A stretch of 64,000 nt of DNA from Lewinella sp. 4G2 (GTDB lineage Bacteria; Bacteroidota; Bacteroidia; Chitinophagales; Saprospiraceae): assembly GCF_001625015.1 (NCBI RefSeq), contig NZ_LVWJ02000019.1, positions 124,001-188,000 of the forward strand, read 5' to 3'. Positions 2,937 through 62,155 of this stretch are shown piece after piece. The position numbers were made by a program, and so were the translations under genes. The notes under the pieces were generated by a model. The model did not search any database. It was not told where the DNA came from and saw only the letters and a program-made list of their open reading frames with translations. The stretch's first letter is position 1. Every line of letters starts with the position of its first letter.

Positions 2937-2953
2937 GGCGCTGACGCAGGTGC
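2937..2953 (-). repeat. 17-base dispersed motif, T variant
   Basis: Exact GGCGCTGACGCAGGTGC on the plus strand (GCACCTGCGTCAGCGCC on the minus). Intergenic, and an inverted partner of the copy at 2994-3010. Confidence 0.9.
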
Positions 2954-2993
2954 GAAGCAAGTAGGTCAGGGTATACCCCATCCCCATTACCCG

Positions 2994-3010
2994 GCACCCG
3001 CGGCAGCGCC
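2994..3010 (+). repeat. 17-base dispersed motif, one mismatch
   Basis: GCACCCGCGGCAGCGCC, one change from the G-variant consensus. Intergenic, 40 bases from the opposite-facing copy at 2937-2953; the two can pair over about 15 of 17 positions. Confidence 0.88.
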
Positions 3011-3017
3011 AAAAACC

Positions 3018-5612: not shown

Positions 5613-7607
5613 ATGACCACCACGCTTCCTTCCCTCGAATTTGATCAGTTCACTTACTCCGACGCAGACTTACTCCGTTTCTACGAGGCCCTCCTCCGCC
5701 CCCGGCTGATCGAGGAAAAGATGCTGAAGCAACTCCGCCAGGGGGTGATCTCCAAGTGGTTCTCCGGTATCGGCCAGGAAGCCATTAGTGTCGGTTGTGC
5801 GCTAGCGCTGGTGCGGAGCGAATGGATGTTCACCATGCACCGTAATCTGGGGGTGTTCACGACGCGGGAGGTACCCCTCCCCCAACTTTTTGCCCAGTGG
5901 CAGGGGAAGCCGGGTGGGTTCACGAAGGGCCGTGACCGGAGTTTCCACTTCGGCTCACCGGAGCACCACATTGTGGGGATGATCTCCCACCTCGGGCCCC
6001 AATTGGCCCTGGCCGCCGGGGTAGCCCTCCGCCACAAACTGATGGGCGAGCAAAAGGTCAGCCTCGCCTTCACGGGAGATGGTGGAACGAGTGAGGGAGA
6101 CTTCCACGAAGCCCTCAACATTGCCGCCGTGTGGCAACTCCCCGTCATCTTCGTGATCGAAAATAATGGGTACGGACTTTCCACACCCGTCCGGGAACAA
6201 TACGCCTGCGCTAACCTGGCGGACCGAGGTGTGGGCTACGGCATGCGCTCGGTTACCATTGATGGAAACAACATCCTGGAAGTCCACGACACCATCGCCA
6301 AATTGGCCACCGAACTACGTACTAATCCGGAACCCGTCCTGGTCGAGTGCCAGACCTTCCGCGTACGGGGCCACGAAGAAGCATCGGGGGTGAAGTACGT
6401 CCCCAAAGAACAGATCGAAGCCTGGACGGAACGGGACCCCGTCGAACGTTTCGCCGATCATCTGCTGGAAAGAAATATCCTGACGAAGGCGGACCAACAG
6501 GCAATGGCGAAGCGCATCAAGGCGGAGATCACCGCCGGGCTTAAGGCCGCCGATGCACTTCCCGCCGCAACGGGTGATCCCGAGCGGGAGGTGGCCGATC
6601 TTTTCCATCCTTACTCGGCACCTGCGCCAGCGCCCGCTGTAGAGACCAGCACAATGCGCTTTATCGACGCGATTTCGGACGGACTCCGCCAGTCCATGCG
6701 CCGGCACGACGACCTTGTTCTGATGGGCCAGGATATCGCCGACTACGGTGGCGTCTTCAAGATCACGGACGGCTTCATGGATGAGTTTGGTGCCGGCCGC
6801 GTCCGCAACACGCCGCTCTGTGAAAGTGGGGTGATCGGTGTCGGACTGGGCCTCAGCATCGCCGGTGGCAAGGCGATGGTGGAAATGCAATTTGGTGATT
6901 TCGTGACCTGCGGCTTCAATCAGATCGTCAATAACCTGGCCAAACTTCACTACCGGTGGGGGCAACGCGCGGACGTCACCGTTCGCCTCCCCGTTGGTGG
7001 CGGCGTTGGCGCCGGGCCCTACCACAGCCAGACGATGGAAGCCTGGTTCACGGCCGTCCCCGGATTGAAAATTGCCTACCCCAGCTCCCCTGCAGACGCG
7101 AAGGGAATGCTGATGAGCGCTCTGAATGACCCTAACCCCGTCCTCTTCTTTGAACATAAGGCCCTATACCGATCGCTTTCGGAGGAAGTGCCAGCGGGTG
7201 ACCACTTCGTACCGATTGGGAAAGCACGCACCATCCGGGAAGGCACCGCGGCTAGCATCATTACGTACGGGATGGGCGTCCACTGGGCACTGAAGGCCGT
7301 AGAAAAGGCTGACCTGGACGTAGAAATCCTGGACCTCCGTAGCCTCGCGCCGCTGGACTACGATAGTATTCGGGCGTCCGTCAGCAAAACGAGTCGTGCC
7401 CTGATCCTGCACGAGGCCAACCTGACCGGCGGCTTCGGTGGGGAACTGGCAGCGTGGATTGGTGAGCACTGTTTCGAGCAGCTGGATGCTCCGGTGACGC
7501 GCCTTGCGGCCATGGATACGCCGGTTCCATTTGCTGCCGCACTGGAGGCTGACTATTTGCCGGAAGGGCGCTTGGAGCAGTCGTTGGAGAGATTGCTGGC
7601 TTACTAG
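5613..7607 (+). CDS. Fused E1 alpha/beta subunit of a 2-oxoacid dehydrogenase complex
   Basis: A 665-residue thiamine-diphosphate enzyme in which the usually separate alpha and beta chains are joined. The alpha half (to about residue 330) carries the ThDP motif GDGGTSEGDFHEALNIA ending in IENN, near residues 155-185; the beta half starts near 350 (MRFIDAISDGLRQSMRRHDD, then GQDIADYGG) and contains the transketolase pyrimidine-binding and C-terminal domains. It should decarboxylate branched-chain 2-oxoacids or pyruvate and acylate the E2 lipoyl domain; which substrate cannot be told from the sequence. E2 and E3 are not adjacent. ATG at 5613 fits the conserved start; 18 upstream in-frame residues lack conservation. 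The inter-subunit linker (SAPAPAPAVE) is encoded by a copy of the 17-base motif. Confidence 0.92.
   Translation: MTTTLPSLEFDQFTYSDADLLRFYEALLRPRLIEEKMLKQLRQGVISKWFSGIGQEAISVGCALALVRSEWMFTMHRNLGVFTTREVPLPQLFAQWQGKPGGFTKGRDRSFHFGSPEHHIVGMISHLGPQLALAAGVALRHKLMGEQKVSLAFTGDGGTSEGDFHEALNIAAVWQLPVIFVIENNGYGLSTPVREQYACANLADRGVGYGMRSVTIDGNNILEVHDTIAKLATELRTNPEPVLVECQTFRVRGHEEASGVKYVPKEQIEAWTERDPVERFADHLLERNILTKADQQAMAKRIKAEITAGLKAADALPAATGDPEREVADLFHPYSAPAPAPAVETSTMRFIDAISDGLRQSMRRHDDLVLMGQDIADYGGVFKITDGFMDEFGAGRVRNTPLCESGVIGVGLGLSIAGGKAMVEMQFGDFVTCGFNQIVNNLAKLHYRWGQRADVTVRLPVGGGVGAGPYHSQTMEAWFTAVPGLKIAYPSSPADAKGMLMSALNDPNPVLFFEHKALYRSLSEEVPAGDHFVPIGKARTIREGTAASIITYGMGVHWALKAVEKADLDVEILDLRSLAPLDYDSIRASVSKTSRALILHEANLTGGFGGELAAWIGEHCFEQLDAPVTRLAAMDTPVPFAAALEADYLPEGRLEQSLERLLAY
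6618..6634 (+). repeat. 17-base dispersed motif, C variant (in coding region)
   Basis: GCACCTGCGCCAGCGCC, inside the linker joining the alpha and beta halves of the E1 protein, read as Ala-Pro-Ala-Pro-Ala-Pro. Might be a chance Ala/Pro linker, but it keeps 16 of 17 bases. Confidence 0.7.
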
Positions 7608-10288: not shown

Positions 10289-11986
10289 TTAGCGGGTAAA
10301 ATTTCGTTTCCAGACGGTCGTATTTCCCCGGGCGTCGGTTACGGTGAGGGCAAAGGTATGTCGCCCGCGGGCAAGGTTACTATCCCGGAAATTATGGGTC
10401 AGTTTATCGTTCTTGGCGTCGTATTCAAGTAACACCCATTCTCCGTCGACGGTGCCCCGGAACTCTAGTCGGCTACTACCAACGGCGTCTTTCGCGATCA
10501 CACTAAAACCGGCGTAGCGGCTCAGGTTGGTAGGGAAGGAGTTGATCTGTACCGTTGGGGGGATGATATCCAGAAACAGTGCGTAGTCCCCAAAACTCAT
10601 CACCCGGGTTACGTACATCCCGGTTTCTGGATCCAGCGCCGTCACTCCGGCCGCGGAGGTTCCTTCTTCGTCGCAGCGGCCTAAATAAACGTGGCCAGTT
10701 AAGCTGTCTGGAATGATGCGGTTCGGGGCTAGCCCAATTGTCAGTGGTTCCTGCAGCGGTGTCAACGGGTCGTGCAGGTGGTAAGTGGGGCTGAAGCGGT
10801 CGGCCGAGTTATCGTTCAGTTCGGTGAACTGGAAGTAAAGATCTTCGTACAGCGCGCCGTCTGGAAAGAACACCTTGAAGCCCGGCCGCTCAATGATGCT
10901 CTCTTCGTCGGCGGGGATGAAGTACTGGTGGGGGTGCGCTACCCGTGGTTCCTTCCCCGGGCGGTACTTAAGGATGAACTTTTGCTGGCTCACGTTACCG
11001 GCGAAGTCGCTCACGTCCACCGTTACGGTTTTCGGTACGTTAGCCTGGAGTTTGATCCACGAGCCCTCGTTCAGCGCTCCGCCCCCTTTGCTTTGCACCC
11101 GCGGCAGCGCCCACAAACGGTGGAACCAGGAGGTGTTCTTCGTCCACTCGCGGTAGTCCGTCGCGGCGTTGAGGTAGCGGGTGTCTTCGAAGGGAATGCG
11201 GTCGTGCAGAATGCCGGATTGTCGCAGCGTATCCACCGTAAGCGTGGCCGAATAGATACCGTTCCAGTTGGGCATCGCGTCCTGGCGGTCGTAAGTCTTT
11301 ACGGCAATACCGACGTCGGGCACGCTCGTAAAGATAGTATCCGGCAAAGCACGTTGCCCCCGCCCCGGCCGGCCGATCTGGTAGGTGGTTGCGGAGATTT
11401 CGTGGCCGCTCGCTTCGAGTTCGTAAACCCGCAAGCTGCGGATCTGGGGGGAACGTTTATCGGGAATCGAAAAGCCGAAACGCATGGGATTGACCGGCAC
11501 GTCGCCGTCAATTTCCCGCATCTCGAAGTGGAGGTGGGGCCCAAAACTGTGGCCCCGGTTCCCTACCCCACCAATTTTCTGGCCGCGTTCTATGGGGAAA
11601 GCGAGCGAGTCAAATTTCAGATCCTGATCGAAACTGGTATACTGAAATTGCCGGGCGCGCAGCGTATCCAGCAACTCCGGTGCCAGTGTCTCTAGGTGAG
11701 CGTAGACGGAGCGGAAACCGTCCGGATGGTCGACGTAAATGGCCTGGCCGTAACCGCCACCGGTGATCTTAATGCGGCTCACGAAACCGTCCTGCACCGC
11801 ATAAACGGGCGTATTTGTGCCCGCCCGGAAATCAAGCCCGGCGTGGTAGTGGTCGCTCCGCAATTCACCAAAAGTGCCCGTAACGAGCAGTGGCCCCTTC
11901 AGCGGTGGCGCGTAATTTTCCTGCGCTGCCGCGGGTGCCAACAAAAGGGCAAGAAACAGGACCGGGAGGAAACGCAGGATGAACAT
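10289..11986 (-). CDS. Exported M23 family metallopeptidase (LytM-type)
   Basis: A 565-residue secreted protein with signal peptide MFILRFLPVLFLALLLAPAAAQ. The LytM/M23 zinc domain lies at about residues 30-170: the first metal motif is HYHAGLDF, and the second the classical GPHLHFEM. M23 enzymes cut peptide cross-links in peptidoglycan; both metal motifs are intact, so it is probably active. The C-terminal 380 residues are beta-rich Ig-like sequence as in other large Bacteroidota M23 proteins. It starts 3 bases after the hemA stop. A one-mismatch copy of the 17-base motif lies within the coding region (11095-11111), in a Pro/Gly loop. Confidence 0.9.
   Translation of the reverse strand: MFILRFLPVLFLALLLAPAAAQENYAPPLKGPLLVTGTFGELRSDHYHAGLDFRAGTNTPVYAVQDGFVSRIKITGGGYGQAIYVDHPDGFRSVYAHLETLAPELLDTLRARQFQYTSFDQDLKFDSLAFPIERGQKIGGVGNRGHSFGPHLHFEMREIDGDVPVNPMRFGFSIPDKRSPQIRSLRVYELEASGHEISATTYQIGRPGRGQRALPDTIFTSVPDVGIAVKTYDRQDAMPNWNGIYSATLTVDTLRQSGILHDRIPFEDTRYLNAATDYREWTKNTSWFHRLWALPRVQSKGGGALNEGSWIKLQANVPKTVTVDVSDFAGNVSQQKFILKYRPGKEPRVAHPHQYFIPADEESIIERPGFKVFFPDGALYEDLYFQFTELNDNSADRFSPTYHLHDPLTPLQEPLTIGLAPNRIIPDSLTGHVYLGRCDEEGTSAAGVTALDPETGMYVTRVMSFGDYALFLDIIPPTVQINSFPTNLSRYAGFSVIAKDAVGSSRLEFRGTVDGEWVLLEYDAKNDKLTHNFRDSNLARGRHTFALTVTDARGNTTVWKRNFTR
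11095..11111 (+). repeat. 17-base dispersed motif, one mismatch (in coding region)
   Basis: GCACCCGCGGCAGCGCC on the plus strand, antisense to the M23 gene, where it encodes part of LWALPRVQSKGG, a loop in the C-terminal region. Confidence 0.85.
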
Positions 11987-14868: not shown

Positions 14869-16260
14869 TCAGCGCCGCTGCTCCGGGAACTGAACCTTGA
14901 ACCGTGTCCAACAATCCGCTTCAGTTGCCAGTGAATAAGTGGCGCGGTGGGCCTCCAGAATTTCCCGGGCCAGCGTCAGGCCAATGCCCTGGCCAGTCGC
15001 TTTGGTACTAAAGAATGGCGTAAAGATGGAGGCAGCGTCCTCCTGGCTGATGCCGGGCCCGTTGTCGGCAATGGTGAACCTTGAAGGGTAAGCCTGAACG
15101 GTTACCTCAATTTGCCCATCGGTTCCAATACTTTGCTGAGCGTTGATGAGGGCGTTAACGATCACCTGCTCGATTTGGGCCACATCCATATCCACTAAAA
15201 CTGGTTTAGCGGCGAGGGCACAGCTACACTCGATCTTATGCTGGCTTAGATGTTGGTGCATGACTTCTACCGTCCGCTGCATCACTTCATTCAAATCAGC
15301 ACTGCGGAGAGCGGGCGCGGGCAGCCGCACCACCCTCGCAAAATTGCGGATGAAGTCCGTCATATTATCCACCCGTTGGATGGCTGCAGGCAGGTAATCC
15401 GTCGTCAATTGCCCCATCTTAGGGTCGTTTTCCTGGGCGGCTTCGAGTAGCGTTTTCAGGATGCTTACCACCCCAGCATTGGTGTTGTTGACTTCGTGGG
15501 CCATCATCCGAATCACCTTACCGTAAGCTTCCTTTTCGGCGGAGAGCAATTCAGCGGTTACGTCCTGAATGACGATGAAGCCCCGCTCAAAGCCCCGGTC
15601 CACAAAACTGGAAAGGTCAACGTGGTAACGTCGGCCGCCGGGGCCGTTTAATACCTGAGTCCGTAAGCCCATCGTGTCATCCGTTGGGCGCTGCCGCAGG
15701 TGCAAAGCAGGTTGGAGGACGGTTTCCCGGAACGCTGGGGACGCACTCTTCTCCTCTAACCAGCCATTTTTACTGGTGACGTTACCGTCAAAATCCAGAA
15801 TAGCGATCCCGAGTTGGGCGGATGCGAGGATGCGATCCAAAAATTCCTCCCGTTGCTTGCCCGAGACGCGTTCCGACCGCAGTTGGTCGATCATCTGGTT
15901 GTACACCGTCACTACGCCGTCCATTTCCTTACTGCCGGTGGGAAGAAGCTTGACGGAAAAATCCTGGTCCTCCAACGCTGCGGCCCCCTGGCTCAGTAGC
16001 CGTACGGGCGCAATGATGGACCGGTAGATGCGAAAGGCGATGTAAGCGGAAAGCAGGAGCGCCGCCTCCGCTACCAGGATATAGATGGGCTCCTCCGTGA
16101 ATGCACGGTACGCCAACACCCCTAACCCGAGGTGAAGGGAGGTGATGTAGAGGATGTATTTGGTGGAGGAGGACAGGGGGGAGGATTTACTATGCTGCTC
16201 TCGTACCGCTGTGTTCCTGTAGTTCCGGGGGGTACCATCCGATGACAAGATCTTTCTCAT
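14869..16260 (-). CDS. Membrane sensor histidine kinase (NtrY/NtrB-like)
   Basis: A 463-residue kinase. Two transmembrane helices lie at about residues 34-52 and 58-78, so little is exposed outside; a HAMP-like linker (82-130) and a PAS-like domain (about 145-245) follow. The phospho-acceptor block is MMAHEVNNTNAGV (His about 256), and the ATPase domain has VIVNALINAQQS, ADNGPGISQ and FFSTKATGQGIGLTLAREI. It probably signals to the sigma-54 response regulator encoded upstream on the same strand. Its start is odd: ATG at 16260 lies inside xisI and the two frames overlap by 71 bases; AAAGGAGG precedes it. No other ATG occurs before the first helix, so the xisHI insertion may have replaced the native start. 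A 17-base motif copy encodes LHLRQRP inside the PAS region. Confidence 0.88.
   Translation of the reverse strand: MRKILSSDGTPRNYRNTAVREQHSKSSPLSSSTKYILYITSLHLGLGVLAYRAFTEEPIYILVAEAALLLSAYIAFRIYRSIIAPVRLLSQGAAALEDQDFSVKLLPTGSKEMDGVVTVYNQMIDQLRSERVSGKQREEFLDRILASAQLGIAILDFDGNVTSKNGWLEEKSASPAFRETVLQPALHLRQRPTDDTMGLRTQVLNGPGGRRYHVDLSSFVDRGFERGFIVIQDVTAELLSAEKEAYGKVIRMMAHEVNNTNAGVVSILKTLLEAAQENDPKMGQLTTDYLPAAIQRVDNMTDFIRNFARVVRLPAPALRSADLNEVMQRTVEVMHQHLSQHKIECSCALAAKPVLVDMDVAQIEQVIVNALINAQQSIGTDGQIEVTVQAYPSRFTIADNGPGISQEDAASIFTPFFSTKATGQGIGLTLAREILEAHRATYSLATEADCWTRFKVQFPEQRR
15687..15703 (-). repeat. 17-base dispersed motif, exact G variant (in coding region)
   Basis: GGCGCTGCCGCAGGTGC on the plus strand; read in the kinase as His-Leu-Arg-Gln-Arg-Pro within a PAS-domain loop. 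Confidence 0.9.
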
Positions 16261-16945: not shown

Positions 16946-18310
16946 CTACCCAATCCCAAACTTCTCCAACCGCCGGTAAAGCGCCGCCCGCGTGAGGCCC
17001 AACTCCTTCGCCGTAGCGGTGATCTCACCGCCGTTGCGGCCAAGGGCGGCTTTGATCATACGTATCTCCATTTCCTCGAGGGTGACACCGCCGGGAGTGA
17101 AGGCGGGGTCGCGGCCGGTGGAGTAGTGGCTTTCCAGATCAACCGGAGTGATGGTGGTCTCGCGGGCGAGGATGGCGACGCGCTCCACCAAATTCTGCAG
17201 TTGGCGTACGTTCCCGGGGAAGGATTGCTTCCGTAACCAGGTGATCGACTCCTTATTATAGCGCAGGCCCGGTCGCTTGTACCGGTTACGGGCACTGGCG
17301 AGAAAATGCTCGGCCAGTCCGGGAATGTCCGCGGGCCGGTCGCGGAGGGCAGGTAAGTGGAGATGGATGAGGTTGATCCGGTACAGTAAGTCTTCCCGGA
17401 AGGCTCCGGCCGTCACTAAACTCTGCAGGTTGCGGCTGGTAGCGGAGAGGATCCGAACGTCGGTTTTCCGTACTTTGGGGTCCCCCAACCGCTGGTATTC
17501 CCGTTGTTGCAGGACGCGGAGGAGCTTTACTTGGGCCGCGAGATCGAGGTCACCAATTTCGTCCAGGAAGAGGGTACCTCCTTCGGCTAATTCGAAGCGC
17601 CCCTTACGGTCGGCGCGGGCGTCCGTGAAGGCACCGGCTTTGTGGCCGAAGAGTTCACTTTCAAACAGGGAGGGAGGGACGCCACCGAGATTAACGGCGA
17701 TGAATGGCCCTTCGGCCCGGTCGCTGGCGGCGTGGATGGCTTCGGCGACCAATTCCTTTCCCGTACCGCTTTCACCGGTTATCAGCACCGAAGCTTTCGT
17801 TGGGGCCACCCGGGCGGCCTGGCCGAGGAGATCCATCAATTCCTGGCTTTCACCGATGATGCCGGCAAAGGCGTCCTCCGGTGCACCCGATCCGGACTTG
17901 GCACCTGCGGCAGCGCCCTGCTCGTTTCGTTCCGCGGCTGGCACCTTGGCCAACTGCGTGGCGATGGCGTTGAGCAGCTCCTTATTGTCCCAGGGCTTGG
18001 CAATGAAATCTTTGGCGCCCGCTTTCATGCCTTCGACGGCCAATTGGACGGTAGCCCAGCCCGTCATTTGGATGACGGGTAGCGAAGGCCGCTCCGCCAA
18101 AATCTCCCCGAGCATTCGCATGCCGTCGCGGCCACTCGTTTCGATCGAAAAATTAAGATCGAGCAGGACCAACGCGGGCTCAAATTCCCGAACGGCCGGC
18201 AGGGCCTCTACCATCCGCGATACCGACCGCACGGTATAGCCCGCCCGGCCCAGCAGGAGTTCAAGACTCTTGGCCACGGTGGTATCGTCGTCGATAATTA
18301 GGATGGACAT
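16946..18310 (-). CDS. NtrC-type sigma-54-dependent response regulator
   Basis: A 454-residue transcription activator. Receiver domain at 1-120 with acidic pocket Asp7-Asp9, phospho-acceptor Asp51 (LLDLNF) and a lysine in FIAKPWD; AAA+ sigma-54 interaction domain at about 150-375 with Walker A GESGTGKE, the loop GAFTDA (GAFTGA in most relatives) and Walker B GGTLFLDEIGDL; Fis-type helix-turn-helix at the C-terminus (ITATAKELGLTRAALYRRL). It should activate sigma-54 promoters when phosphorylated by the kinase encoded downstream. A -24/-12 type site lies before the HlyD gene at the head of this block, so the exporter genes are the likely target. The linker between receiver and AAA+ is Ala/Gly-rich and contains a 17-base motif copy. 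Confidence 0.95.
   Translation of the reverse strand: MSILIIDDDTTVAKSLELLLGRAGYTVRSVSRMVEALPAVREFEPALVLLDLNFSIETSGRDGMRMLGEILAERPSLPVIQMTGWATVQLAVEGMKAGAKDFIAKPWDNKELLNAIATQLAKVPAAERNEQGAAAGAKSGSGAPEDAFAGIIGESQELMDLLGQAARVAPTKASVLITGESGTGKELVAEAIHAASDRAEGPFIAVNLGGVPPSLFESELFGHKAGAFTDARADRKGRFELAEGGTLFLDEIGDLDLAAQVKLLRVLQQREYQRLGDPKVRKTDVRILSATSRNLQSLVTAGAFREDLLYRINLIHLHLPALRDRPADIPGLAEHFLASARNRYKRPGLRYNKESITWLRKQSFPGNVRQLQNLVERVAILARETTITPVDLESHYSTGRDPAFTPGGVTLEEMEIRMIKAALGRNGGEITATAKELGLTRAALYRRLEKFGIG
17901..17917 (+). repeat. 17-base dispersed motif, exact G variant (in coding region)
   Basis: GCACCTGCGGCAGCGCC, antisense to the regulator gene, which reads it as Gly-Ala-Ala-Ala-Gly-Ala in the linker between receiver and AAA+ domains. 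Confidence 0.9.
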
Positions 18311-22372: not shown

Positions 22373-23812
22373 TTATTCTCCCAGGGGTTTATCGTTAATG
22401 AAATCCCAGAGGGTTAGGCGGGCCAGGGAGGCGTAGGTAAGCCAGTAGGCCCTCAGGGTGCGGGCGTAGGCGCGCGTGTTCTGGTCGCGAAACTGCTGGG
22501 CCAGGGTTAATTCCGTCAAAGGGATGGCGCCGAGGGTGTAGCTCTCCTGGCTAATACGAAAGCGTTCGTTGGCCAGGTCGCGAATCTCCGTAGCGTACTT
22601 CAGTTCTTGTTGGACGGTGATCCACTGGTCCAGCAACTGAGTGAGTTCGGTGGTCAGGTCGAGGCGGGTGCGGCGGGCAATTTCCAGGGTGAGGTCACGG
22701 TTGGTTTCTGCCTGGCGGCGGAGATTTTTGCGTTGGCCCCAGTCCAGAATCGGCAGGCTGACGTTGACACTCACGATGCGCTCGTTCTGCGGGTCGGTAT
22801 AGATCGGGGGCAGGTTTTCGTCGTTGCGCACGAAGCCAAAACCAGCCTCCAGATTGATTTGAGGGCCCAGGTCCCGCTTCGTCCGTTCCACCTCTCTTTC
22901 CGCCTCGCGAGTGGACTGAGCAGCAGTGAGTAGTTCGGGGCGGCGCTGCAGCATCTTGGCACCCGCTTCGTCGGTGTCGATGGCGATCGCTTTGGCGTCG
23001 GGTAGTTCGGGGATTAACAAATCACCGTCGTAAGCTCGCCCCAGGAGCTGTTGGATTCCGGCGGAGGCCGCCGCCACTTGGCGTTCGGCGCGCAGGGCAT
23101 TTTGCTCGGCGCTCTTGAGTTCGAGGCGCAATTGTACGAGGTCACCCCGGTCAATTTTCCCCAGTTCGTAGCGCTCTTCGGCCACCGTAAACAGTTGCTG
23201 ATTAGCCTCCCGGTTGAGTTCGGCGATCCGGCGTTCCTGGTCGGCGTCCACGAGGTTGAAGAAGCGTTCGGTCGCGACCAGGGCGGCATTGGCGCGGGCG
23301 GCGGTCAGTTCTTTTTCGCTTACCTCCTTAGCGAGCGGCAGCAAATCCCGATCCCATTTCCAGGCATTAAAACCGAGGATGGGCTGGCGGTAAAAAAGGC
23401 GCACCGGCGTCCCGTTATAGCTCTTGCTGTCGAGGGCGAAATTATCCGTCCGTTGCAGCCGGCTTTCGAGGCTCACCGTGCCCCCGGTCGCGGCGATGCG
23501 TTGGTTAGCAAATAGCCCGACGAAGCTGTTGTTCAATTCAATTTCGCGGAAGGCGACCGTGCCATCGTCCTGGGTCACTTCTGTGCTCGTCCGGAAATAA
23601 TTGGGGAGGTTGGCGTTGAGGTCGACCCGCGGTTTCAGGCTGGCCTCGAAGGCAGTCAGCTCGTACTCCGCGCTGCGCAGATCTTGCTCGGCGATCAGTA
23701 CGTTCGTCGCTTCCGCAGCGGCGAGTTGCTGTAGCTCCTGCAACCCAATCACCGTTTGGGCGCTGACGCAGGTACCGGGGAAAAGGGGCAAGCAAATAAA
23801 GAGCACCAGCAT
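22373..23812 (-). CDS. TolC family outer-membrane efflux protein
   Basis: A 479-residue outer-membrane channel. ATG at 23812 gives the signal peptide MLVLFICLPLFPGTCVSAQ; the longer open frame adds 62 residues that read through a repeat (PLPRPLSKREGRR) and is rejected. The mature protein has the two OEP repeats typical of TolC, with long heptad-type helices rich in Ala, Glu, Arg and Leu (for example around 140-260 and 330-460) and a conserved LPILDWGQRKNLRRQAE. It forms the outer-membrane exit duct for the HlyD adaptor encoded just upstream and the MacB-type pump encoded downstream. Its signal-peptide end is encoded by a 17-base motif copy. Confidence 0.92.
   Translation of the reverse strand: MLVLFICLPLFPGTCVSAQTVIGLQELQQLAAAEATNVLIAEQDLRSAEYELTAFEASLKPRVDLNANLPNYFRTSTEVTQDDGTVAFREIELNNSFVGLFANQRIAATGGTVSLESRLQRTDNFALDSKSYNGTPVRLFYRQPILGFNAWKWDRDLLPLAKEVSEKELTAARANAALVATERFFNLVDADQERRIAELNREANQQLFTVAEERYELGKIDRGDLVQLRLELKSAEQNALRAERQVAAASAGIQQLLGRAYDGDLLIPELPDAKAIAIDTDEAGAKMLQRRPELLTAAQSTREAEREVERTKRDLGPQINLEAGFGFVRNDENLPPIYTDPQNERIVSVNVSLPILDWGQRKNLRRQAETNRDLTLEIARRTRLDLTTELTQLLDQWITVQQELKYATEIRDLANERFRISQESYTLGAIPLTELTLAQQFRDQNTRAYARTLRAYWLTYASLARLTLWDFINDKPLGE
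23759..23775 (-). repeat. 17-base dispersed motif, T variant, one mismatch (in coding region)
   Basis: GGCGCTGACGCAGGTAC on the plus strand; the TolC gene reads it as Gly-Thr-Cys-Val-Ser-Ala at the signal-peptide cleavage region. Confidence 0.85.
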
Positions 23813-25402: not shown

Positions 25403-25419
25403 GCACCTGCGGCAGCGCC
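25403..25419 (+). repeat. 17-base dispersed motif, exact G variant (intergenic)
   Basis: GCACCTGCGGCAGCGCC in the divergent intergenic region upstream of the DUF4199-like gene. Confidence 0.92.
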
Positions 25420-27238: not shown

Positions 27239-27435
27239 CGGACGCTTGGAGGAGCTCCTACGTCGCACGCTCCAAGGTCCTTGATATACTGACTTTTAAG
27301 AAACCCCGCGACTTCTATAGATCCATTGGAGCGTCGCGAAGCGTCCTCTAAGCGTTCGGTATTCGAGGTACCCTGTCTAGATTCTTTAAAGCCGGACGCT
27401 TGGAAAAACTCCTACGTTACATGCTCCAAGGTCCT
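27239..27435. repeat. REP/BIME-like cluster, three half-units
   Basis: Half-units at 27239-27280 (GGACGCTTGGAGGAGCTCC to CTCCAAGGTCC), 27321-27358 (inverted: CATTGGAGCG to CTAAGCGTTC) and 27393-27435 (direct again, diverged). Each folds into a hairpin with CTTGGAG/CTCCAAG arms. The cluster fills the 318-base gap between dusB and the susD gene and contains no gene. Confidence 0.85.
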
Positions 27436-27458
27436 TAGTCGTTAGAAAATCCCCCCTT

Positions 27459-38443: not shown

Positions 38444-40330
38444 CTACCGCCCACCCACGATTAGTGGTTGCGTCACCGCGGCACCCGGGCCGTTGATCTT
38501 CAGGTAGTAGAGCCCGGCGTTCAGGCGCGGCCGCAGGTGCAGGGGAAGTTGGTGCGCGCCCGCCCCCAATGTTCCGGGGGAGGTGATCCGGCGAATCACC
38601 CGCCCCTCCCCACTGAGGAGGTCGATGGTAATGGACGCGGGCGCGGCGAGGTCAAGGCTGAGGGTAACCCACTCGGTAGCGGGGTTAGGGTAAACGCTGG
38701 GTTGATCCCGCAGAAAAGCGGGAAGGGGGGCTTCGACGGAGGTGCTCAGGTCGTCAACGAACCCTACCCTCTCGATGATGCGTTCGGCTTCGGGGCCACT
38801 CATGAAGAGGTCCCACAGCAAACCGGAACGATGGTTCTCAATCATACAGATGATGGGCCCCTGGTCAATGGCCAGGTAGCTATCCGCGTACCAGTTGCGG
38901 CTGACGTTGAAGGCATCATAAAAACCGAAGGGGCCCCACATCCGGTCGCCAAGGTCTCGATAGAAGTGCTTGAGGGCGGCCATGCTTTCGTCCGGCGTGT
39001 ACGGCATGCTACTGAGGGCGGCCGTTGGGGCGATGGTACCGTTATCGACGGTAGGGTTATCCGGCGCGTGGGCGAGGTAGCCGTCGGGGTCGTCACTCGC
39101 AGTAAGTCCCCAACAGTTTTCTCCGTAACCGGCGTGGTTGTATGGGTTTTCGATACAGTGGGCCTGGTCGATCAGCGCGTGGTTGCGCCCGACGTTGAAG
39201 TAGTTGGCGTAAGCATCCTTCTTCTCCCGCGGGTCGAAGGCGATGTAGCTGTAATGGGTGTAAAACAACGGGCCTCCCTTACCCCGCCCCACCAGGAGTG
39301 GGATGCCATTAAACCTGAGGGAGTTGAGGTAATTACCGCCGACCCAACCGGAGTCGTAGAGGGAGCGCGGAATGGCAAAATCAGGATTGGGGGCAGCGAT
39401 GGCCAGCAAGTAGACGATGTGGGTTTCGTTAAAGCCCCGTACGTCCAGGTCGATGTCGAAACCGAAGTTGGGCGACCAGTGCCACGTCAACACCGTAGGG
39501 TCAAGTTGGCGATACCAGTTCCAGTTCACCTCGGCGTACAGTTGGCTGATGTTGTCGCGCAGGGCCTTTTCCTCCGCGTTATCCCCCGTGTAGTAGGCTT
39601 TCGCGGTGAGTAGCCCCTGTAACAGGAGGGCCGTTTCCACGATGTCTCCCCCGTCATCCGTAGGGCTAAAGGGAATCACGGCTCCCGACCGCCCGTTCAA
39701 CCAGTGGGCGAACGCCCCCTGAAAGCGGGGGACGGTCATTAGGAAATCTACGATCCTACTGGTTCGTTCCCGGGCCTGCTCGTAGGTGATGAAGCCGCGT
39801 TCCGCCCCTACAATTAGGGCCTGGACGCCGAAGCCCGTGCCGCCCGTCGTGACGAAACCAGCCGTGTTTCGTTCCCGGGCCATCCCTGACGTAGGGTGGC
39901 CGAATTCAAAGAAGTAGCGGAGGGTGTATTCCTGGACCATATCCAGCAACATCGAATCACTCATCTCGAAGGTGGAGACGGCTACCGTATCGGAAGCATC
40001 CCCCAACTGCCCGCTAGATCCGATCGCCCGGACGAAGTAACGCCGATTCTCATCCTGGGCTCCTACAAAATCGATCAGCCGCCCGTCGAAATTAGCGGCG
40101 GTACCGACCAAAGAGAATGGCCCGTCATCCGTGGCGCCAAAAACGCGGACGTTACCCACGAAAGGGTTAGGTGAAGGTTCCCAGTTGATCTCGACGTGGT
40201 GGTCGAAGGCACGGGCGGCCACTCCTGTGAGGGCATCCGGTTGCCCGGTCAGTACCCCGCCGGCAGTGGATACCAGGACGAGCACTAGCAAGAAAAAACG
40301 GGAAAAGGTCATTTGCATGATTTGATTCAT
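38444..40330 (-). CDS. GH144-like endo-glucanase, T9SS-secreted form
   Basis: A 628-residue secreted enzyme; start at 40330, with ATG 40318 or 40312 also possible before the hydrophobic signal FSRFFLLVLVLVSTAGGVLTG. Residues about 35-120 are a fibronectin-III-like domain (ALTGVAARAFDHHVEINWE), 125-540 the glycoamylase-like/GH144 domain (TLRYFFEFGHPTSGMARERN, GGTGFGVQALIVGAERGFIT, DDGGDIVETALLLQGLL, GFNETHIVYLLAIAAPNP, DNGTIAPTAALSSMPYTPDE, IDQGPIICMIENHRSGLLWD), and 550-628 a T9SS type A sorting domain (VYPNPATEWVTLSL to VTQPLIVGG). It shares the fold but not the anchoring of the lipoprotein enzyme of this locus, suggesting one released and one surface-bound cutter. Confidence 0.85.
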   Translation of the reverse strand: MNQIMQMTFSRFFLLVLVLVSTAGGVLTGQPDALTGVAARAFDHHVEINWEPSPNPFVGNVRVFGATDDGPFSLVGTAANFDGRLIDFVGAQDENRRYFVRAIGSSGQLGDASDTVAVSTFEMSDSMLLDMVQEYTLRYFFEFGHPTSGMARERNTAGFVTTGGTGFGVQALIVGAERGFITYEQARERTSRIVDFLMTVPRFQGAFAHWLNGRSGAVIPFSPTDDGGDIVETALLLQGLLTAKAYYTGDNAEEKALRDNISQLYAEVNWNWYRQLDPTVLTWHWSPNFGFDIDLDVRGFNETHIVYLLAIAAPNPDFAIPRSLYDSGWVGGNYLNSLRFNGIPLLVGRGKGGPLFYTHYSYIAFDPREKKDAYANYFNVGRNHALIDQAHCIENPYNHAGYGENCWGLTASDDPDGYLAHAPDNPTVDNGTIAPTAALSSMPYTPDESMAALKHFYRDLGDRMWGPFGFYDAFNVSRNWYADSYLAIDQGPIICMIENHRSGLLWDLFMSGPEAERIIERVGFVDDLSTSVEAPLPAFLRDQPSVYPNPATEWVTLSLDLAAPASITIDLLSGEGRVIRRITSPGTLGAGAHQLPLHLRPRLNAGLYYLKINGPGAAVTQPLIVGGR

Positions 40331-45251: not shown

Positions 45252-45597
45252 CGGACGCTTGGAGGAGCTCTTGCGTCGCACGCTCCAAGGTCCTTGATAT
45301 GCTGACTTTGAATAATCCCCGGGACTTCCATAGATCCTTGGAGCGTCACGAAGCGTCCTCCAAGCGTTCAGTAATCGAGGTAATCCGTCAAACTCCTTGA
45401 GAACGGACGCTTGGAGGAGCTCCTACGTCGCACGCTCCAAGGTCCTTGATGTACTGACTTTTAAAATACCCCGCGACTTCCAAGATCCTTGGAGCGTCGC
45501 GCAGCGTCCTCCAAGCGTTCGGTAATTAAAGTAGTCCGTCCAACTCCTTTAGAACGGACGCTTGGAGGAGCTCCTGCGTCGCACGCTCCAAGGACCT
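45252..45597. repeat. REP/BIME-like cluster, five half-units
   Basis: Half-units at 45252-45294, 45334-45370 (inverted), 45403-45444, 45486-45522 (inverted) and 45554-45597, alternating in orientation about every 80 bases. Direct units read GGACGCTTGGAGGAGCTC to CGCTCCAAGG; inverted ones CCTTGGAGCG to CTCCAAGCGTTC. The spacers are also similar between repeats (TTGATATGCTGACTTT, TTGATGTACTGACTTT). They fill the divergent gap between the T9SS gene and the ABC-F gene. Confidence 0.9.
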
Positions 45598-45655
45598 AAA
45601 GATGTGAGTGAACCCAGAAACCCGTACCTTCGCCGCCTCAAAATCCCCCCTCCTG

Positions 45656-47584
45656 ATGCTCAGCGCAACCGGTATCTACCAACAGTACGGCGATCGTGTA
45701 CTTTTCAACCACGCCACCTTTGTCGTCATGCCGCGGGATAAGGTCGGATTAGTGGGCCGCAACGGCGCGGGTAAGTCCACTATGCTGAAGATCATTGCCG
45801 GGGATATCGGCTCCGATCAGGGCACCGTCACCCGGCCTAACGGGACGACGCTCGGCTTCCTGCACCAGGAAATGGACCTCCCTACGGGCAACACCGTCAT
45901 GGAGGAAACGCTGACGGCCTTCGCCCACATCCAGGAGATGGACGACCGCATCCAGGCCATGACCAAGGAGCTGGAGACACGGATGGACTACGAGACAGAC
46001 GCATACGCCGACTTCCTCGAAGAATTCACCTCCCTCACCGAGCGGTTCGCCGTCATTGGAGGGATCACCATGGAAGCCGAAGCCGAACGGGTGTTGAAAG
46101 GACTGGGCTTCGAGCAGAAGGACTTTTCCCGCCAAACCACCGAATTCTCGGGCGGCTGGCAAATGCGGATCATCCTCGCCAAAATGCTCCTCCAACGGCC
46201 AGATTACCTGCTGCTTGATGAGCCAACGAACCACCTCGACATCGAGTCAATCATCTGGCTCGAAGAATTCCTGGCCGGCTACTCCGGCGCTGTCATCACG
46301 ATCAGCCATGACAAACAGTTCCTGGATAACGTCACCAAGCGGACGCTCGAAATTGAACTGGGGAAGGTCTACGACTACAAAGCCAGCTACTCCGAGTACG
46401 TCATCCTGCAAGCAGACCGGCGGGAAAAGGCCGAAGCGGCCTACGAAAACCAGCAAAAGGTGATCGCCGACAAGGAACGGACCATCAGCCGCTTCATGGC
46501 TAAGGCGACGAAGACCAAGATGGCCCAGTCCATGCAAAAGCAACTCGACAAGATCGAGCGGATCGAATTGGACCAGACGGACACATCCGTCATGAACCTG
46601 CGCTTTCCCAAAGCCCCGCGCTCGGGTGCCATCACGCTAGAATGTAAGAACCTGACCAAGAGCTACGGCGACCTCAACGTCCTCCGCGGCGTGGACCTGA
46701 AGGTGGACCGCGGAGACCGCGTCGCCTTCGTCGGCCAGAACGGGCAGGGTAAGACGACATTGGCCAAGATCCTGATCGGACTCATCCCCGCCACGGAAGG
46801 GGAGGCGAAATTGGGCCATAACGTCACGGTTGGGTACTACGCCCAGAACCAATCCGACGAACTGGACGGCAAGAAAACGCTGCTGGAAACGATGGAGGAA
46901 GCCAGCCCGCCGGAGATGCGGACCCGCCTGCGGGCCATGCTCGGTGCCTTCCTGTTCAGCGGGGAAGACGTTGAGAAGAAGGTAAGCGTCCTGAGTGGCG
47001 GGGAACGAGCCCGCCTCGCGCTGGCCTGTATGCTGCTGCGCCCCTTCTCCCTGCTGGTGCTCGATGAACCGACGAACCACCTCGACATGGCCAGTAAGGA
47101 CATGCTCAAGAACGCCGTCATGGAGTACGACGGCACCCTCGTCGTCGTCAGTCACGACCGGGAATTCCTTGGTGGGCTTACGGACCGGACCATTGAATTC
47201 CGGGACCACAAACTGTACGAGCACCTTGGTGACGTCAACTTCTTCCTCGAACGGCGCCAATTGGATAATATGCGGTCCGTTGAGCTGGAGAAGTCCAAAG
47301 CGGATAAGCCGGCCCCTCCTACATCCACCGCACCTGCGGCAGCGCCCAAGAAAGAATTGAGTTACGAAGACCGCCGCCGCCTCGAAAAGAACGTCGGCAA
47401 CGCCGAGCGGAAGATCGAAAAACTGGAGAAGGAGATCGCCAAGATCCACCTCACGATGGCCGACCCGAATTTCTACAACGACCAGGCCAAAGTGGACAAG
47501 ACAACCGCCAGCCTGCAACGGAAGCAGCGGGAACTGGACGAGGTGATGGAGGAATGGGAAGTGGCGAGTGAGGAGCTGGGATAG
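45656..47584 (+). CDS. ABC-F family ATPase (ribosome-associated)
   Basis: A 642-residue soluble protein with two ABC cassettes and no membrane segment. First cassette: GRNGAGKST, SGGWQMR, LLLDEPTNHLD; second: GQNGQGKTT, SGGERAR, LLVLDEPTNHLD. The inter-cassette linker at about 240-300 (ISRFMAKATKTKMAQSMQKQLDKIERI) is the P-site tRNA interaction motif region. A C-terminal coiled coil (about 565-642) follows a linker (TSTAPAAAPKKELSYEDR). ABC-F proteins act on stalled or initiating ribosomes; this one is of the housekeeping Uup/ABCF3-like layout rather than a known resistance protein. ATG at 45656 (MLSATGIYQQYG) is the family start; a GTG 16 codons upstream is also in frame. A 17-base motif copy encodes the Ala/Pro linker. 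Confidence 0.93.
   Translation: MLSATGIYQQYGDRVLFNHATFVVMPRDKVGLVGRNGAGKSTMLKIIAGDIGSDQGTVTRPNGTTLGFLHQEMDLPTGNTVMEETLTAFAHIQEMDDRIQAMTKELETRMDYETDAYADFLEEFTSLTERFAVIGGITMEAEAERVLKGLGFEQKDFSRQTTEFSGGWQMRIILAKMLLQRPDYLLLDEPTNHLDIESIIWLEEFLAGYSGAVITISHDKQFLDNVTKRTLEIELGKVYDYKASYSEYVILQADRREKAEAAYENQQKVIADKERTISRFMAKATKTKMAQSMQKQLDKIERIELDQTDTSVMNLRFPKAPRSGAITLECKNLTKSYGDLNVLRGVDLKVDRGDRVAFVGQNGQGKTTLAKILIGLIPATEGEAKLGHNVTVGYYAQNQSDELDGKKTLLETMEEASPPEMRTRLRAMLGAFLFSGEDVEKKVSVLSGGERARLALACMLLRPFSLLVLDEPTNHLDMASKDMLKNAVMEYDGTLVVVSHDREFLGGLTDRTIEFRDHKLYEHLGDVNFFLERRQLDNMRSVELEKSKADKPAPPTSTAPAAAPKKELSYEDRRRLEKNVGNAERKIEKLEKEIAKIHLTMADPNFYNDQAKVDKTTASLQRKQRELDEVMEEWEVASEELG
47330..47346 (+). repeat. 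17-base dispersed motif, exact G variant (in coding region)
   Basis: GCACCTGCGGCAGCGCC, read in the ABC-F protein as Ala-Pro-Ala-Ala-Ala-Pro in the linker before the C-terminal coiled coil. Confidence 0.92.
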
Positions 47585-49524: not shown

Positions 49525-50193
49525 ATGCCTCACACCATCGCCATTGACGGCTATAGCGCCTGCGGAAAATCCACCCTCGCCAAGGCCATGGCCCGCCAAC
49601 TCGGTTACCGCTACATCGATACCGGCGCCATGTACCGGATGGTGACGCTCTATTTCCAACGCAACGACATTGACATTTCGGACGAGGGCGCTATCGCAGG
49701 TGCCATGGAACGGATCAAGATTGACTTCGTGCCGGGCTCCAACGACGCATTGCTGAACGGTGAAAATGTGGAGGACGAGATCAGGGGATTGGCCGTCAGC
49801 AACTTCGTCTCCCCGGTTGCGGCGCTATCGGCGGTTCGTTCCGCGATCGTCCCCCAACAACGGCGGATGGGCGAGGAAGGCTCCGTCGTAATGGATGGCC
49901 GGGATATCGGTACCGTCGTCTTCCCCAACGCCGACCTGAAGATCTTCGTCACGGCGGATATGGACGTCCGCACCGACCGCCGCCTCGCTGAACTCGAAGC
50001 CGCCGGGCAAATGGCCGACCGCCAATCCGTAGCCGACAACCTCCGCGAACGGGACTACATCGACTCGAACCGCGCCGACAGCCCCCTGCGCCAGGCGGAG
50101 GACGCCGTGGTGCTGGATAATTCCAACCTTAATCTGGAGCAGTTCATCGCGCGGGGGATGGAACTGGCACGGGCGATACCTAAACAATCGTAA
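49525..50193 (+). CDS. cmk: Cytidylate kinase
   Basis: A 222-residue nucleotide kinase phosphorylating CMP and dCMP. P-loop GYSACGKSTLAKAMA at residues 8-22 (most relatives have GPSGSGKST), the conserved RYIDTGAMYRMVT block, VVMDGRDIGTVVFPNADLKIFVTA with the CMP-binding DGRDIGT, the lid region with DRQSVADNLRERDYIDSNRADSPL, and the terminal AVVLDNSNLNLEQ. Length is normal. ICMT-family gene follows after 3 bases and is probably co-transcribed. Confidence 0.96.
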   Translation: MPHTIAIDGYSACGKSTLAKAMARQLGYRYIDTGAMYRMVTLYFQRNDIDISDEGAIAGAMERIKIDFVPGSNDALLNGENVEDEIRGLAVSNFVSPVAALSAVRSAIVPQQRRMGEEGSVVMDGRDIGTVVFPNADLKIFVTADMDVRTDRRLAELEAAGQMADRQSVADNLRERDYIDSNRADSPLRQAEDAVVLDNSNLNLEQFIARGMELARAIPKQS

Positions 50194-52929: not shown

Positions 52930-52946
52930 GCACCTGCGGCAGCGCC
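52930..52946 (+). repeat. 17-base dispersed motif, exact G variant (intergenic)
   Basis: GCACCTGCGGCAGCGCC between the Uma2 gene and the end of rlmD, in the 128-base convergent gap. Confidence 0.92.
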
Positions 52947-54431: not shown

Positions 54432-54435
54432 GGGC

Positions 54436-60175: not shown

Positions 60176-60373
60176 CTTGAGAAACTTTCGCTAAGTCTGT
60201 GGTCGTTGAGTTTACTGCTTACAAACGTCGGATTGAGGGTGAGTTACAAGTAGTTATAACAGATTACTTCCGCCGCAACTTTGCTTCCGGGCCAATTCTT
60301 TCGCTAACTGAATAGGTATATCCTAAGCTCTAAAATGGAATCGCCCCATTGCTGGTTAGAGCCGTTGCTGGAC

Positions 60374-60407
60374 AAAAAAAAGACCGGAGTGCAGAGCACA
60401 GCCGGTC
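60374..60407 (-). terminator. Hairpin with T-run on the minus strand
   Basis: GACCGGC/GCCGGTC outer stem and GTGC/GCAC inner stem, followed on the minus strand by eight Ts. No gene is known upstream of it on that strand, so it would end a short unassigned transcript or act in antisense to the BASS leader. Confidence 0.6.
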
Positions 60408-60444
60408 CAGAAATAAACACCTAAAACCCTATTAACATCTTGGC

Positions 60445-60474
60445 AACGCGGCCATTCGGCGGCGTTCTTTTTTT
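60445..60474 (+). terminator. Hairpin with T-run on the plus strand
   Basis: AACGC-G-GCC, loop ATTC, GGC-G-GCGTT, then seven Ts. It points to the plus strand, where no annotated gene lies upstream; it would end an unassigned transcript. Confidence 0.6.
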
Positions 60475-60548
60475 GCGGCGGGCGGTAACCTTTTTACCGT
60501 GAATACGCTACTAGGATAGCGCAACTGCCGTAATGCGAAAGTAACGGC

Positions 60549-60556
60549 TATATTTG
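60549..60556 (+). promoter_or_regulatory. -7 promoter element of the BASS gene
   Basis: TATATTTG matches the TAnnTTTG box; it lies 26 bases before the ATG at 60583. No clear -33 TTTG. Confidence 0.5.
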
Positions 60557-60582
60557 ATTAACCAAAGAAAGGTCTAAATAAA

Positions 60583-61470
60583 ATGATCGACGTACTAATC
60601 GGGGTGATCCTGGCGTTGATCATGTTTGGGATTGGCCTTAGCCTCCGGCCGGCCCACTTTCGGGCGCTGGCCCGCCATCCGCGGGTGGTCTTCTTAGGTT
60701 TGTTTTTACAGCTCTGTCTGTTGCCGCTTACAGCGTTTGCCGTGGCGACTTTATTGCGGCTGCCACCGGAATTCGCCGCGGGTGTCGTCATCCTGTCAGC
60801 CTGCCCCGGAGGTCTGACGAGCAACTTCGTCAGCTATCTCCTCAAAGCCGATACCGCGCTGGCCGTTAGCCTGACGATCTGCAATACTTCCCTCTCCCTC
60901 ATCACCATTCCGCTCATCGTGAATCTGGGTTTACGGACCTTTAATTCCGGTGGCACCGTCGATCACCTCCCCGTATTGCCAACGGCGGCGACCATCTTTT
61001 TGGTGGTGCTCGTCCCGGTACTATTGGGGATGTTCTACCGCAGCAAGCGCGAACAAGGTGGCCAGCGGTTACAACAAAACTTGCGGTGGATCAGCGTCGT
61101 CCTCCTCGCCGTCCTGTTTGCCCTCAAACTGTTTGCCCCGGCGGATGTGGGGGGGAGCGAACTGAGTTTGCGCGACGTGCAGATCATCCTGCCGGCATCC
61201 GTCCTCATCAATATTATGGCCTTATTATCCGGGCGAATCTTTGGTAAGTGGTTCGGCTTTGGCCGCAACGCCCAGCTTACGCTCGGGGTGGAGGCCGGCA
61301 TTCAGAATACCAGCCTGGCCTTCATGATCACTTCTACCCTGCTGATGAACGAAGAGATGCTCAAACCCGCCCTCGTTTACGCCATGTTCACGTTCTTTAC
61401 GGCCCTTGCTTACGGCACCCTCCTCAAGCCCGGTGCCTGGCGCAACCTCCTCAAAAGCCGCCCGGAATAA
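60583..61470 (+). CDS. Bile acid:sodium symporter family protein
   Basis: A 295-residue inner-membrane transporter of the BASS/SBF family, with about nine or ten helices. Hallmarks are LIMFGIGLSLRPAHFRAL at the start, LSACPGGLTSNFVSYLLKADTALAVSLT (the conserved cross-over segment) and LTLGVEAGIQNTSLAFMI in the second half. Family members co-transport organic anions such as pantothenate, 2-keto acids or bile acids with Na+; the substrate here is not predictable. The stop codon overlaps the ATG of the pseudouridine synthase by one base, so the two genes are translationally coupled. Confidence 0.9.
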   Translation: MIDVLIGVILALIMFGIGLSLRPAHFRALARHPRVVFLGLFLQLCLLPLTAFAVATLLRLPPEFAAGVVILSACPGGLTSNFVSYLLKADTALAVSLTICNTSLSLITIPLIVNLGLRTFNSGGTVDHLPVLPTAATIFLVVLVPVLLGMFYRSKREQGGQRLQQNLRWISVVLLAVLFALKLFAPADVGGSELSLRDVQIILPASVLINIMALLSGRIFGKWFGFGRNAQLTLGVEAGIQNTSLAFMITSTLLMNEEMLKPALVYAMFTFFTALAYGTLLKPGAWRNLLKSRPE

Positions 61471-62114
61471 TGCCCCCACCCCTCAGTATTCTGCACGCCG
61501 GCCAGGGCTACGTGGTCATCAATAAGACCGCTGGCCTCACCGTGGAGGCTTACCGCGACCACGACACCATCGAAGCCCGGGCCTGGGCACATTTTCAGCG
61601 GCCGGGCAGCCCCAAGCGGCCGTTCGTCGGCATCGTTCACCGCCTGGATCGCCCCGTTTCGGGTGCTCTTTTGCTGGCGAGAAATAAATCCACCCTCCGG
61701 CGGCTCAACGAGGCATTCGCCCAGAAAAAGGTACAAAAGACCTATACGGCGCTGACGCAGGTGCCATTGCCGGACGAACGGGGCACCCTCGAACACTATC
61801 TGGTCAAGGACAACCTGGAGAAGCGCGCCCGAGTAGTGGATGGGCCCGCTAAGGGAGCCAAGTTAAGTCGGTTGGAGTACGAACTGCTATTGAAGGAACC
61901 GGACGGATACCGATACGCCGTAACCCCCATCACCGGCCGTTACCACCAGATCCGCGTCCAATTGGCGACGGCCGGGGCGCCGATTGTGGGGGATGCTAAA
62001 TATGGCTCCCCCGTTCCCTACCTTACCGATCAAATCAAACTCCACGCCAGCCGCTTGGTGTTCCCGGACGTTGATGGTAGCCCCGTCACCGTCGATTGCC
62101 CACCGGATTGGTAG
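61470..62114 (+). CDS. RluA family pseudouridine synthase
   Basis: A 214-residue enzyme of the RluA group: the active-site block is FVGIVHRLDRPVSGALLLARN with the catalytic Asp in HRLD, followed by KTYTALTQV, KLSRLEYELLL and the RYHQIRVQLATAGAPIVGDAKYG signature. It isomerises uridine in rRNA or tRNA; it lacks an S4 domain and is short, similar to RluA/RsuA-like single-domain members. ATG at 61470 (MPPPLSILHAG) shares its A with the TAA of the upstream gene. A longer frame from 61248 runs antiparallel to nothing conserved and overlaps the transporter gene in another frame; it is rejected. A 17-base motif copy encodes TALTQV. Confidence 0.92.
   Translation: MPPPLSILHAGQGYVVINKTAGLTVEAYRDHDTIEARAWAHFQRPGSPKRPFVGIVHRLDRPVSGALLLARNKSTLRRLNEAFAQKKVQKTYTALTQVPLPDERGTLEHYLVKDNLEKRARVVDGPAKGAKLSRLEYELLLKEPDGYRYAVTPITGRYHQIRVQLATAGAPIVGDAKYGSPVPYLTDQIKLHASRLVFPDVDGSPVTVDCPPDW
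61748..61764 (-). repeat. 17-base dispersed motif, exact T variant (in coding region)
   Basis: GGCGCTGACGCAGGTGC, read in the pseudouridine synthase as Ala-Leu-Thr-Gln-Val-Pro, at the end of a strand near the active-site fold. Confidence 0.88.
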
Positions 62115-62138
62115 GTACGTCCCTATCCCACTTACCCC

Positions 62139-62155
62139 GCACCTGCGGCAGCGCC
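62139..62155 (+). repeat. 17-base dispersed motif, exact G variant (intergenic)
   Basis: GCACCTGCGGCAGCGCC in the 91-base gap between the pseudouridine synthase and the CpcT/CpeT-like gene. Confidence 0.92.

Follow-up and report, generated by a model that had tools for sequence, protein, structure and literature searches.

The 64,000-nucleotide stretch of DNA analyzed here (the window; Lewinella sp. 4G2, contig NZ_LVWJ02000019.1, positions 124,001 to 188,000) repeats one 17-bp word, GCACCTGCGKCAGCGCC, in genes of unrelated function and in the gaps between them, which raises the question of what kind of signal or element the word represents. The first-pass annotation had listed 14 copies, ten of them exact (six with G and four with T at the variable base), and a pattern scan of the window reproduced all 14 coordinates and strands as well as both counts of exact matches. 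Four copies absent from that list, at 11922(-), 35798(+), 38524(-), and 49687(-), were also identified, bringing the cumulative numbers for either variant to 10 exact, 16 when one change is allowed, and 18 when two are.

The exact copies with G lie in a gene whose product has HAMP and histidine-kinase ATPase domains (15687..15703, minus strand), in a response regulator gene (16946-18310, minus strand) at the linker between the receiver and sigma-54 domains (17901..17917, plus strand), in an ABC protein gene that encodes two ABC stretches, just ahead of the C-terminal domain (47330..47346, plus strand), and in intergenic DNA (25403..25419, 52930..52946, and 62139..62155, all plus strand). Those with T are found in an intergenic region (2937..2953, minus strand), within a TonB-dependent receptor gene (31246..31262, plus strand), within a pseudouridine synthase gene (61748..61764, minus strand), and at 31872..31888 (minus strand), which is near an N terminus (APASAQ) if the open reading frame starts at 31931 and is intergenic according to the gene caller. 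Six copies carry one change. One is intergenic (2994..3010, plus strand), 57 bp from the copy at 2937 and on the opposite strand; the others lie in a dehydrogenase gene (5613-7607) at the linker that joins its E1 and transketolase domains (6618..6634, plus strand), within an M23 peptidase gene (10289-11986, minus strand; copy at 11095..11111, plus strand), toward the N terminus in a gene for an outer-membrane efflux protein (23759..23775, minus strand; one change relative to the K consensus), within a protein's C-terminal sorting domain (35798..35814, plus strand), and in a glucoamylase-like gene past the domain (38524..38540, minus strand). The two copies with two changes are located near the N terminus of the same M23 peptidase (LLLAPAAAQ; 11922..11938, minus strand) and in the cytidylate kinase gene (49525-50193; copy at 49687..49703, minus strand). 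Some copies occupy interdomain linkers (6618, 17901, and 47330), and others lie near N termini with the look of signal peptides (11922, 23759, and 31872).

Other repeats were noted in the window. A separate intergenic repeat (1518-1990, 27240-27460, and 45253-45600) is built of units such as CCGGACGCTTGGAGGAGCTCCTACGTCGCACGCTCCAA, spaced approximately 150 to 170 bp apart within each gap. For this repeat, TCCAAGCGTCC was counted six times in the window, always outside called genes, and twice in 400 kb of contig C14. CGCAAAGGTA occurs seven times in the window (7927, 13230, 14305, 27143, 54435, 63257, and 63449), again never within a called gene, and its complement, TACCTTTGCG, is similar to the Bacteroidota promoter -7 element, TAnnTTTG.

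Markov chains of order 2, 3, and 5 (40 chains per order) produced no exact or one-change copies of the 17-bp word and no more than a single copy when two changes were allowed, in agreement with the first-pass view that the window copies are not due to chance. A count over the complete genome, which the annotation had called for, gave 468 exact copies in 5.21 Mb (21 contigs), 236 on the plus and 232 on the minus strand, with the reversed pattern absent; allowing up to two changes, there were 1,234 copies versus 15 for the reversed control, or approximately one per 4.2 kb. With these excesses over the controls, the word is neither limited to a few genomic copies nor present at a frequency expected from composition, the two outcomes named as counting against its significance. 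A specific word so far above expectation is a mark of uptake sequences.

The balance between strands seen genome-wide was repeated in 400 kb of contig C14 (42 and 48 copies) and among the 39 copies listed for contig C11 (19 and 20). A polarity of the Chi or KOPS type, which had been suggested earlier, was therefore not borne out, the origin of replication being unmapped; as GC skew in the 400 kb of C14 is near zero and changes sign, replichore polarity is unreadable there. Spacing in this region was slightly more even than random (coefficient of variation of 0.84 versus 0.98), and even spacing was rejected as a property of the word because the difference was not significant (P = 0.057). Close pairs in any orientation were not enriched, with two gaps below 100 bp among 90 copies versus 2.0 expected; both of these pairs are inverted. 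The near-palindromic core gave no significant hairpin in any of three copies folded as DNA (z of 0.76, -0.93, and 0.76 relative to shuffles), and with folding no better than that of shuffles and no enrichment of close pairs, a role as hairpin or terminator was dropped.

Three giant open frames of 18 to 29 kb are present in C14, at 91829-110834 (L164-L165), 288948-306816 (L174-L175), and 359653-388966 (L177-L179). Two of the three have the stretch QLGLSFVRTSAPASAQQNAL in common. Together the frames hold 5 of the 90 copies, a depletion relative to all sequence (P = 0.0016); within coding sequence only (5 of 45 copies), the depletion is not significant (P = 0.11), so a preference for the core genome is not established.

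An alignment of 138 copies, comprising 108 from 464 kb, with two changes at most, and 30 exact ones from contig C11, revealed that the 17-mer is the core of an asymmetric motif of approximately 40 bp. Information runs from -18 to +21 around the core, and nothing further out is shared. The motif consists of a pyrimidine-rich stretch with preferences for CC, TT, and C, followed by the core and then by C and A/T-rich bases. Using a simple gene caller, which places the copy at 31872 outside genes although it is coding if the upstream start is used, 51 of 108 copies were found in the 14.3% of the sequence that lies outside called genes (P = 3e-16), an over-representation of approximately three times. 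The remaining 57 run with the gene in 28 cases and against it in 29, and they are spread over the six frames as 15, 14, 14, 9, 5, and 0. Translated by the genetic code, the frame without copies would read RCRRC, and the T variant would introduce a stop there. In the Cys frame (from CCTGCG), T is kept in 2 of 9 copies versus 32 of 51 intergenic copies (Fisher P = 0.03). As T is mostly replaced in the Cys frame, the frame giving RCRRC or a stop is empty, and the other five are all used, the DNA word is primary and the proteins tolerate it. The first-pass annotation had described copies in gaps, in unrelated genes, and in several frames, and had excluded a protein-level cause from the frames; both statements hold in this larger set. 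Absence of strand bias, occurrence in and between genes, and an excess in permissive places are likewise features of uptake sequences.

To define how widely the word is distributed, 60 genomes were compared. Exact own-type copies were identified in 16 of 21 genomes of the genus and in none of 39 genomes outside it. When as many as two changes were allowed, 18 of the 21 had between 75 and 1,374 copies, approximately 4.7-fold or more above the reversed control. No enrichment was seen in G001 (14 versus 11) or G011 (8 versus 9), and that in G007 was marginal (38 versus 20), because samples from these genomes show other words, either with a longer spacer or unrelated. From these sequence counts, we take the word to be confined to one genus of the Bacteroidota, Neolewinella-like/Lewinella. 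The name is assigned because, among the matches listed, eight named Neolewinella/Lewinella loci are denser in copies (14 copies or dialect copies with up to one change in approximately 60 kb) than the other 72 loci (77 copies in 550 kb, little above the one copy by which each was fetched) and because one of the eight, L090 (an uncultured Lewinella MAG), matches genus member G010 without a difference over 3,534 bases.

Within the genus, the word exists as dialects: GCACCTGCGKCAGCGCC in the own genome, GCACCTGCGKCCGCGCC in G002 and its kin, GCACCCGCG.CCGCGCC in G019, and GCTCCCGCGTCCCCGCC in G004. Several consensus strings of the single-base dialects, drawn from 3 to 13 sites, are rough, and two genomes had fewer than 3 sites. 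A dialect whose spacer is longer by two bases, CCYGCGCTCCGNCGC, has 509 exact copies in G001 and 390 in G007 (controls, 1 and 0) and at most 88 in any other member of the genus; outside the genus, one genome of 39 had four matches, forming two adjacent pairs. In a two-protein tree, drawn with an assumed root on G011 (the longest branch), G001 is sister to G007, and G000 pairs with G019. The one clear dialect pair, that with the longer spacer, is a clade, and dialects thus follow phylogeny as those of uptake sequences do, as far as this clade, a tree of two genes, and several dialects from few sites can tell. G011 (L187-L193, L268, and L378) harbors an unrelated dense word, CAAAGTAGCAATG, with an TTTTGGCT flank and a longer form, TTTTGGCTNNCAAAGTAGCAATG. 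There are 393 exact copies of CAAAGTAGCAATG in G011 (control, 1), and none of the other 59 genomes has more than one; in G011 most copies stand alone and are scattered, and a few form inverted pairs 120 to 210 bp apart. Two further repeated words, GAGCTGGAGCTCCAGCTC in G001 (L180-L186) and GACTCCCGACTCCCGA in G011 (L187-L193), are probably clustered repeats, as they left the top of the list once copies within 150 bp were merged.

Orthologous genes with and without the motif were compared, as the first-pass annotation had proposed. At the cytidylate kinase site, read by eye in 21 genomes, the motif or a close variant is present in 12 and missing in 9, with no indel at the site; 20 of the 21 genomes align gap-free with the window protein, and the sole gap, in G011, is 12 residues from the site. 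The site in the E1/transketolase gene lies in a length-variable linker, which is found with and without the motif and with gaps of varying length. A wider survey of 431 comparisons at 58 sites yielded 199 orthologs with the motif, 204 without, and 28 in between. When all 431 were pooled, gaps lay within 8 residues of the site in 33% versus 0.9% at control positions, a rate that, taken alone, would favor insertion; 388 of the 431 comparisons start at window sites or at loci fetched for the cytidylate kinase and E1/transketolase genes. Among motif-lacking orthologs, 125 of 204 were gap-free. The other loci contributed 43 rows, and 12 of the 14 without the motif (10 sites) were gap-free within 8 residues. 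Identity near the sites in motif-lacking orthologs was 0.38 versus 0.65 in the flanks (control, 0.74 versus 0.74), a divergence that agrees with the permissive locations described for neisserial DNA uptake sequences (DUS; PMC2397512).

Of the three readings in the first-pass annotation, that of an uptake sequence was strengthened by strand symmetry, dialects, and turnover in cytidylate kinase, while the other two lost ground. A short mobile or amplifying repeat of the MITE, REP, or palindromic-element type, inserted as a unit, would explain why copies lie in variable, often length-variable protein stretches and why the pooled gap rate is raised near them. Such an insert is nonetheless disfavored, because orthologs lacking the motif show no gap at the site in cytidylate kinase, nor within 8 residues in 12 of 14 rows from other loci, and no conserved DNA extends past the -18 to +21 interval; gap lengths in the E1 linker vary, and the hallmarks of unit insertion, namely empty sites, defined ends, or a target duplication, were not seen. 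We regard this origin as improbable. A Chi-like or KOPS-like recombination or segregation signal would be in keeping with the high copy number across the whole genome, yet it fits poorly with balanced strands in the genome, C11, and C14 and with the length of the motif; the strand bias along the replichore by which such signals are recognized was not found, with the origin unmapped, and we give this reading very little credence. That composition or protein repeats (Ala/Pro linkers and signal peptides) make the word common could be argued from the copies that encode APAAAP linkers or N-terminal APASAQ-like ends, but the idea is refuted by the reversed control (0 versus 468 copies), by Markov chains to order 5, and by the use of five frames together with many intergenic copies, and its probability is negligible.

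The word could also mark the sites of an abundant intracellular DNA-binding protein active in nucleoid organization, segregation, or global regulation, with the sites kept by selection. Such a protein could use a motif that is long, specific, and asymmetric and that occurs on either strand, both within genes and outside them. Against this, selection alone would have to bring approximately 1,200 sites into line whenever specificity changed, in several clades with their own dialects, and the copies show neither a relation to gene strand (28 versus 29) nor a polar bias. An intracellular protein is less apt since it offers no ready way to rewrite all sites in each clade, and we consider this explanation unlikely. 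Drive by biased import is preferred because the copies are dense, free of strand preference, permissively placed, and bound to one genus and because dialects shift together at hundreds of places.

On these comparisons of sequence, the word is probably the core of a signal resembling a DNA uptake sequence and kept by transformation drive. A surface receptor would bind the motif on free DNA, which would cross the outer membrane and then the ComEC channel before recombining into the chromosome. Because fragments with a good copy would be imported and recombined more often, copies would accumulate by molecular drive on both strands wherever they are harmless, such as between genes, in linkers, and in variable protein stretches. 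A shift in receptor specificity would then be followed by the whole genomic set, giving rise to species dialects. No uptake or transformation in the genus is reported in the open-licence literature surveyed.

The machinery for such uptake was sought by profile searches. ComEC is present in all 21 genomes of the genus. The own genome gave a single, below-cutoff match to PF00437 (T2SSE/PilB-type ATPase), and a type IV pilus with a pilin receptor, as judged by this ATPase only, was not detected in it. Matches over the cutoff in 11 of the 21 genomes are partial (model positions of approximately 139 to 222 of 370) and lie in frames of approximately 940 to 1,070 residues; by their sequence, we read them as other P-loop proteins. 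In the Bacteroidota genus Riemerella, transformation is reported to involve ComEC, DprA, ComF, RecA, and others, including a co-encoded outer-membrane protein/DUF5689 pair that is essential in R. anatipestifer (PMC8459023), and R. columbina is described in a further report as preferring its own DNA (PMC7965970). Of the 39 genomes outside the Lewinella-like genus, 30 have DUF5689, and among the 21 members only G011 does; profile searches gave no match in the own genome or in 19 further members. The DUF5689 gene of G011 adjoins that of an outer-membrane-type protein with weak, below-cutoff carboxypeptidase-regulatory-like and plug matches, and neither protein has a relative in the PDB by sequence.

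The only member of the genus with an unrelated word is thus also the only one with the DUF5689 pair. This single coincidence is a lead only, since it is limited to one branch and samples of 40 to 80 kb from six genomes of other genera that also bear DUF5689 revealed no clear word. A seventh such genome, that of G033 (L228-L231; 11.2 Mb), contains the repeated words AACTCAAGTGCCAGATCA and GTGGAGCTGG. A search of the 20 other genomes with the G011 outer-membrane protein found no receptor for the motif. Nearly all of the matches listed cover its N-terminal part, to approximately residue 223, and we take these, from sequence, to be SusC-like receptors. Matches in G003 and G018 (residues approximately 118 to 339) were dropped as competence candidates because they are TonB-receptor-like and adjoin genes read as transporter- and nucleotidyltransferase-like. 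Among the comEC neighborhoods of G000, G019, G007, G001, and G011, only comEC was common to all five, with neighbors shared within the close pairs G000/G019 and G007/G001. A tentative proposal, which we hold as possible rather than probable, is that uptake in these Bacteroidota is sequence specific and pilus independent and that the receptor was swapped within the genus: the outer-membrane/DUF5689 pair of G011 would read TTTTGGCTNNCAAAGTAGCAATG, and a different, putative receptor would recognize GCACCTGCGKCAGCGCC with its dialects in the 20 remaining members, each receptor imposing its word on the genome.

Should the word be an uptake tag, it would give a third, distant group of bacteria such a tag, besides those of Neisseria and Haemophilus. 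Uptake sequences have so far been a curiosity confined to two proteobacterial families, with type IV pilins regarded as the readers in each. A 2025 report (PMC12616744) names the Neisseriaceae and Pasteurellaceae as the only families known to have them, and no such word is described in the listed titles and abstract openings of open-licence literature on uptake sequences or transformation in Bacteroidota, Lewinella, Neolewinella, Riemerella, or Flavobacter. An independent case in the Bacteroidota, with no pilus motor ATPase detected, with many dialects, and with one wholesale replacement of the word within a genus, would allow tests of whether such words spring from selfish drive caused by receptor bias, of how receptor and word evolve jointly, and of whether species become genetically isolated by them, and it would point to a DNA receptor in a phylum for which none is established in the surveyed literature.

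KOPS, Chi, and HIP1 likewise place many copies of one word in a genome but are shorter and either polar or fully palindromic, whereas the motif described here is asymmetric, long, and unbiased. Riemerella belongs to the same phylum and shares ComEC, and an outer-membrane/DUF5689-type pair like its own is found in G011; it differs in that only A/T-rich k-mers are given as putative signals in the Riemerella report and in that the own genome and 19 further members of the genus are without a DUF5689 match. Neisserial DUS (PMC3630211 and PMC2397512) are alike in having many copies on both strands, many of them intergenic, in permissive places, and with dialects that follow the tree. They differ in their unrelated sequence and in length, 10 to 12 bp versus a 17-bp core in a motif of approximately 40 bp, and their frequent inverted terminator pairs have no counterpart in the close pairs counted above, which show no excess. 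The DUS reader is reported to be the pilin ComP, while no type IV pilus ATPase over the cutoff was found in the own genome. The Pasteurellaceae USS (Hin and Apl types) share with the motif a core with a weaker one-sided flank, and their two types differ inside the core (PMC12616744); their sequence and phylum are unrelated, their predicted receptor is a type IV minor pilin, and between the dialects described here spacer length varies as well. The core, GCACCTGCGKCAGCGCC, does not correspond to GCCGTCTGAA, AAGTGCGGT, ACAAGCGGT, or a near dialect of these, and we file the motif as working like an uptake sequence, outside the DUS and USS families.
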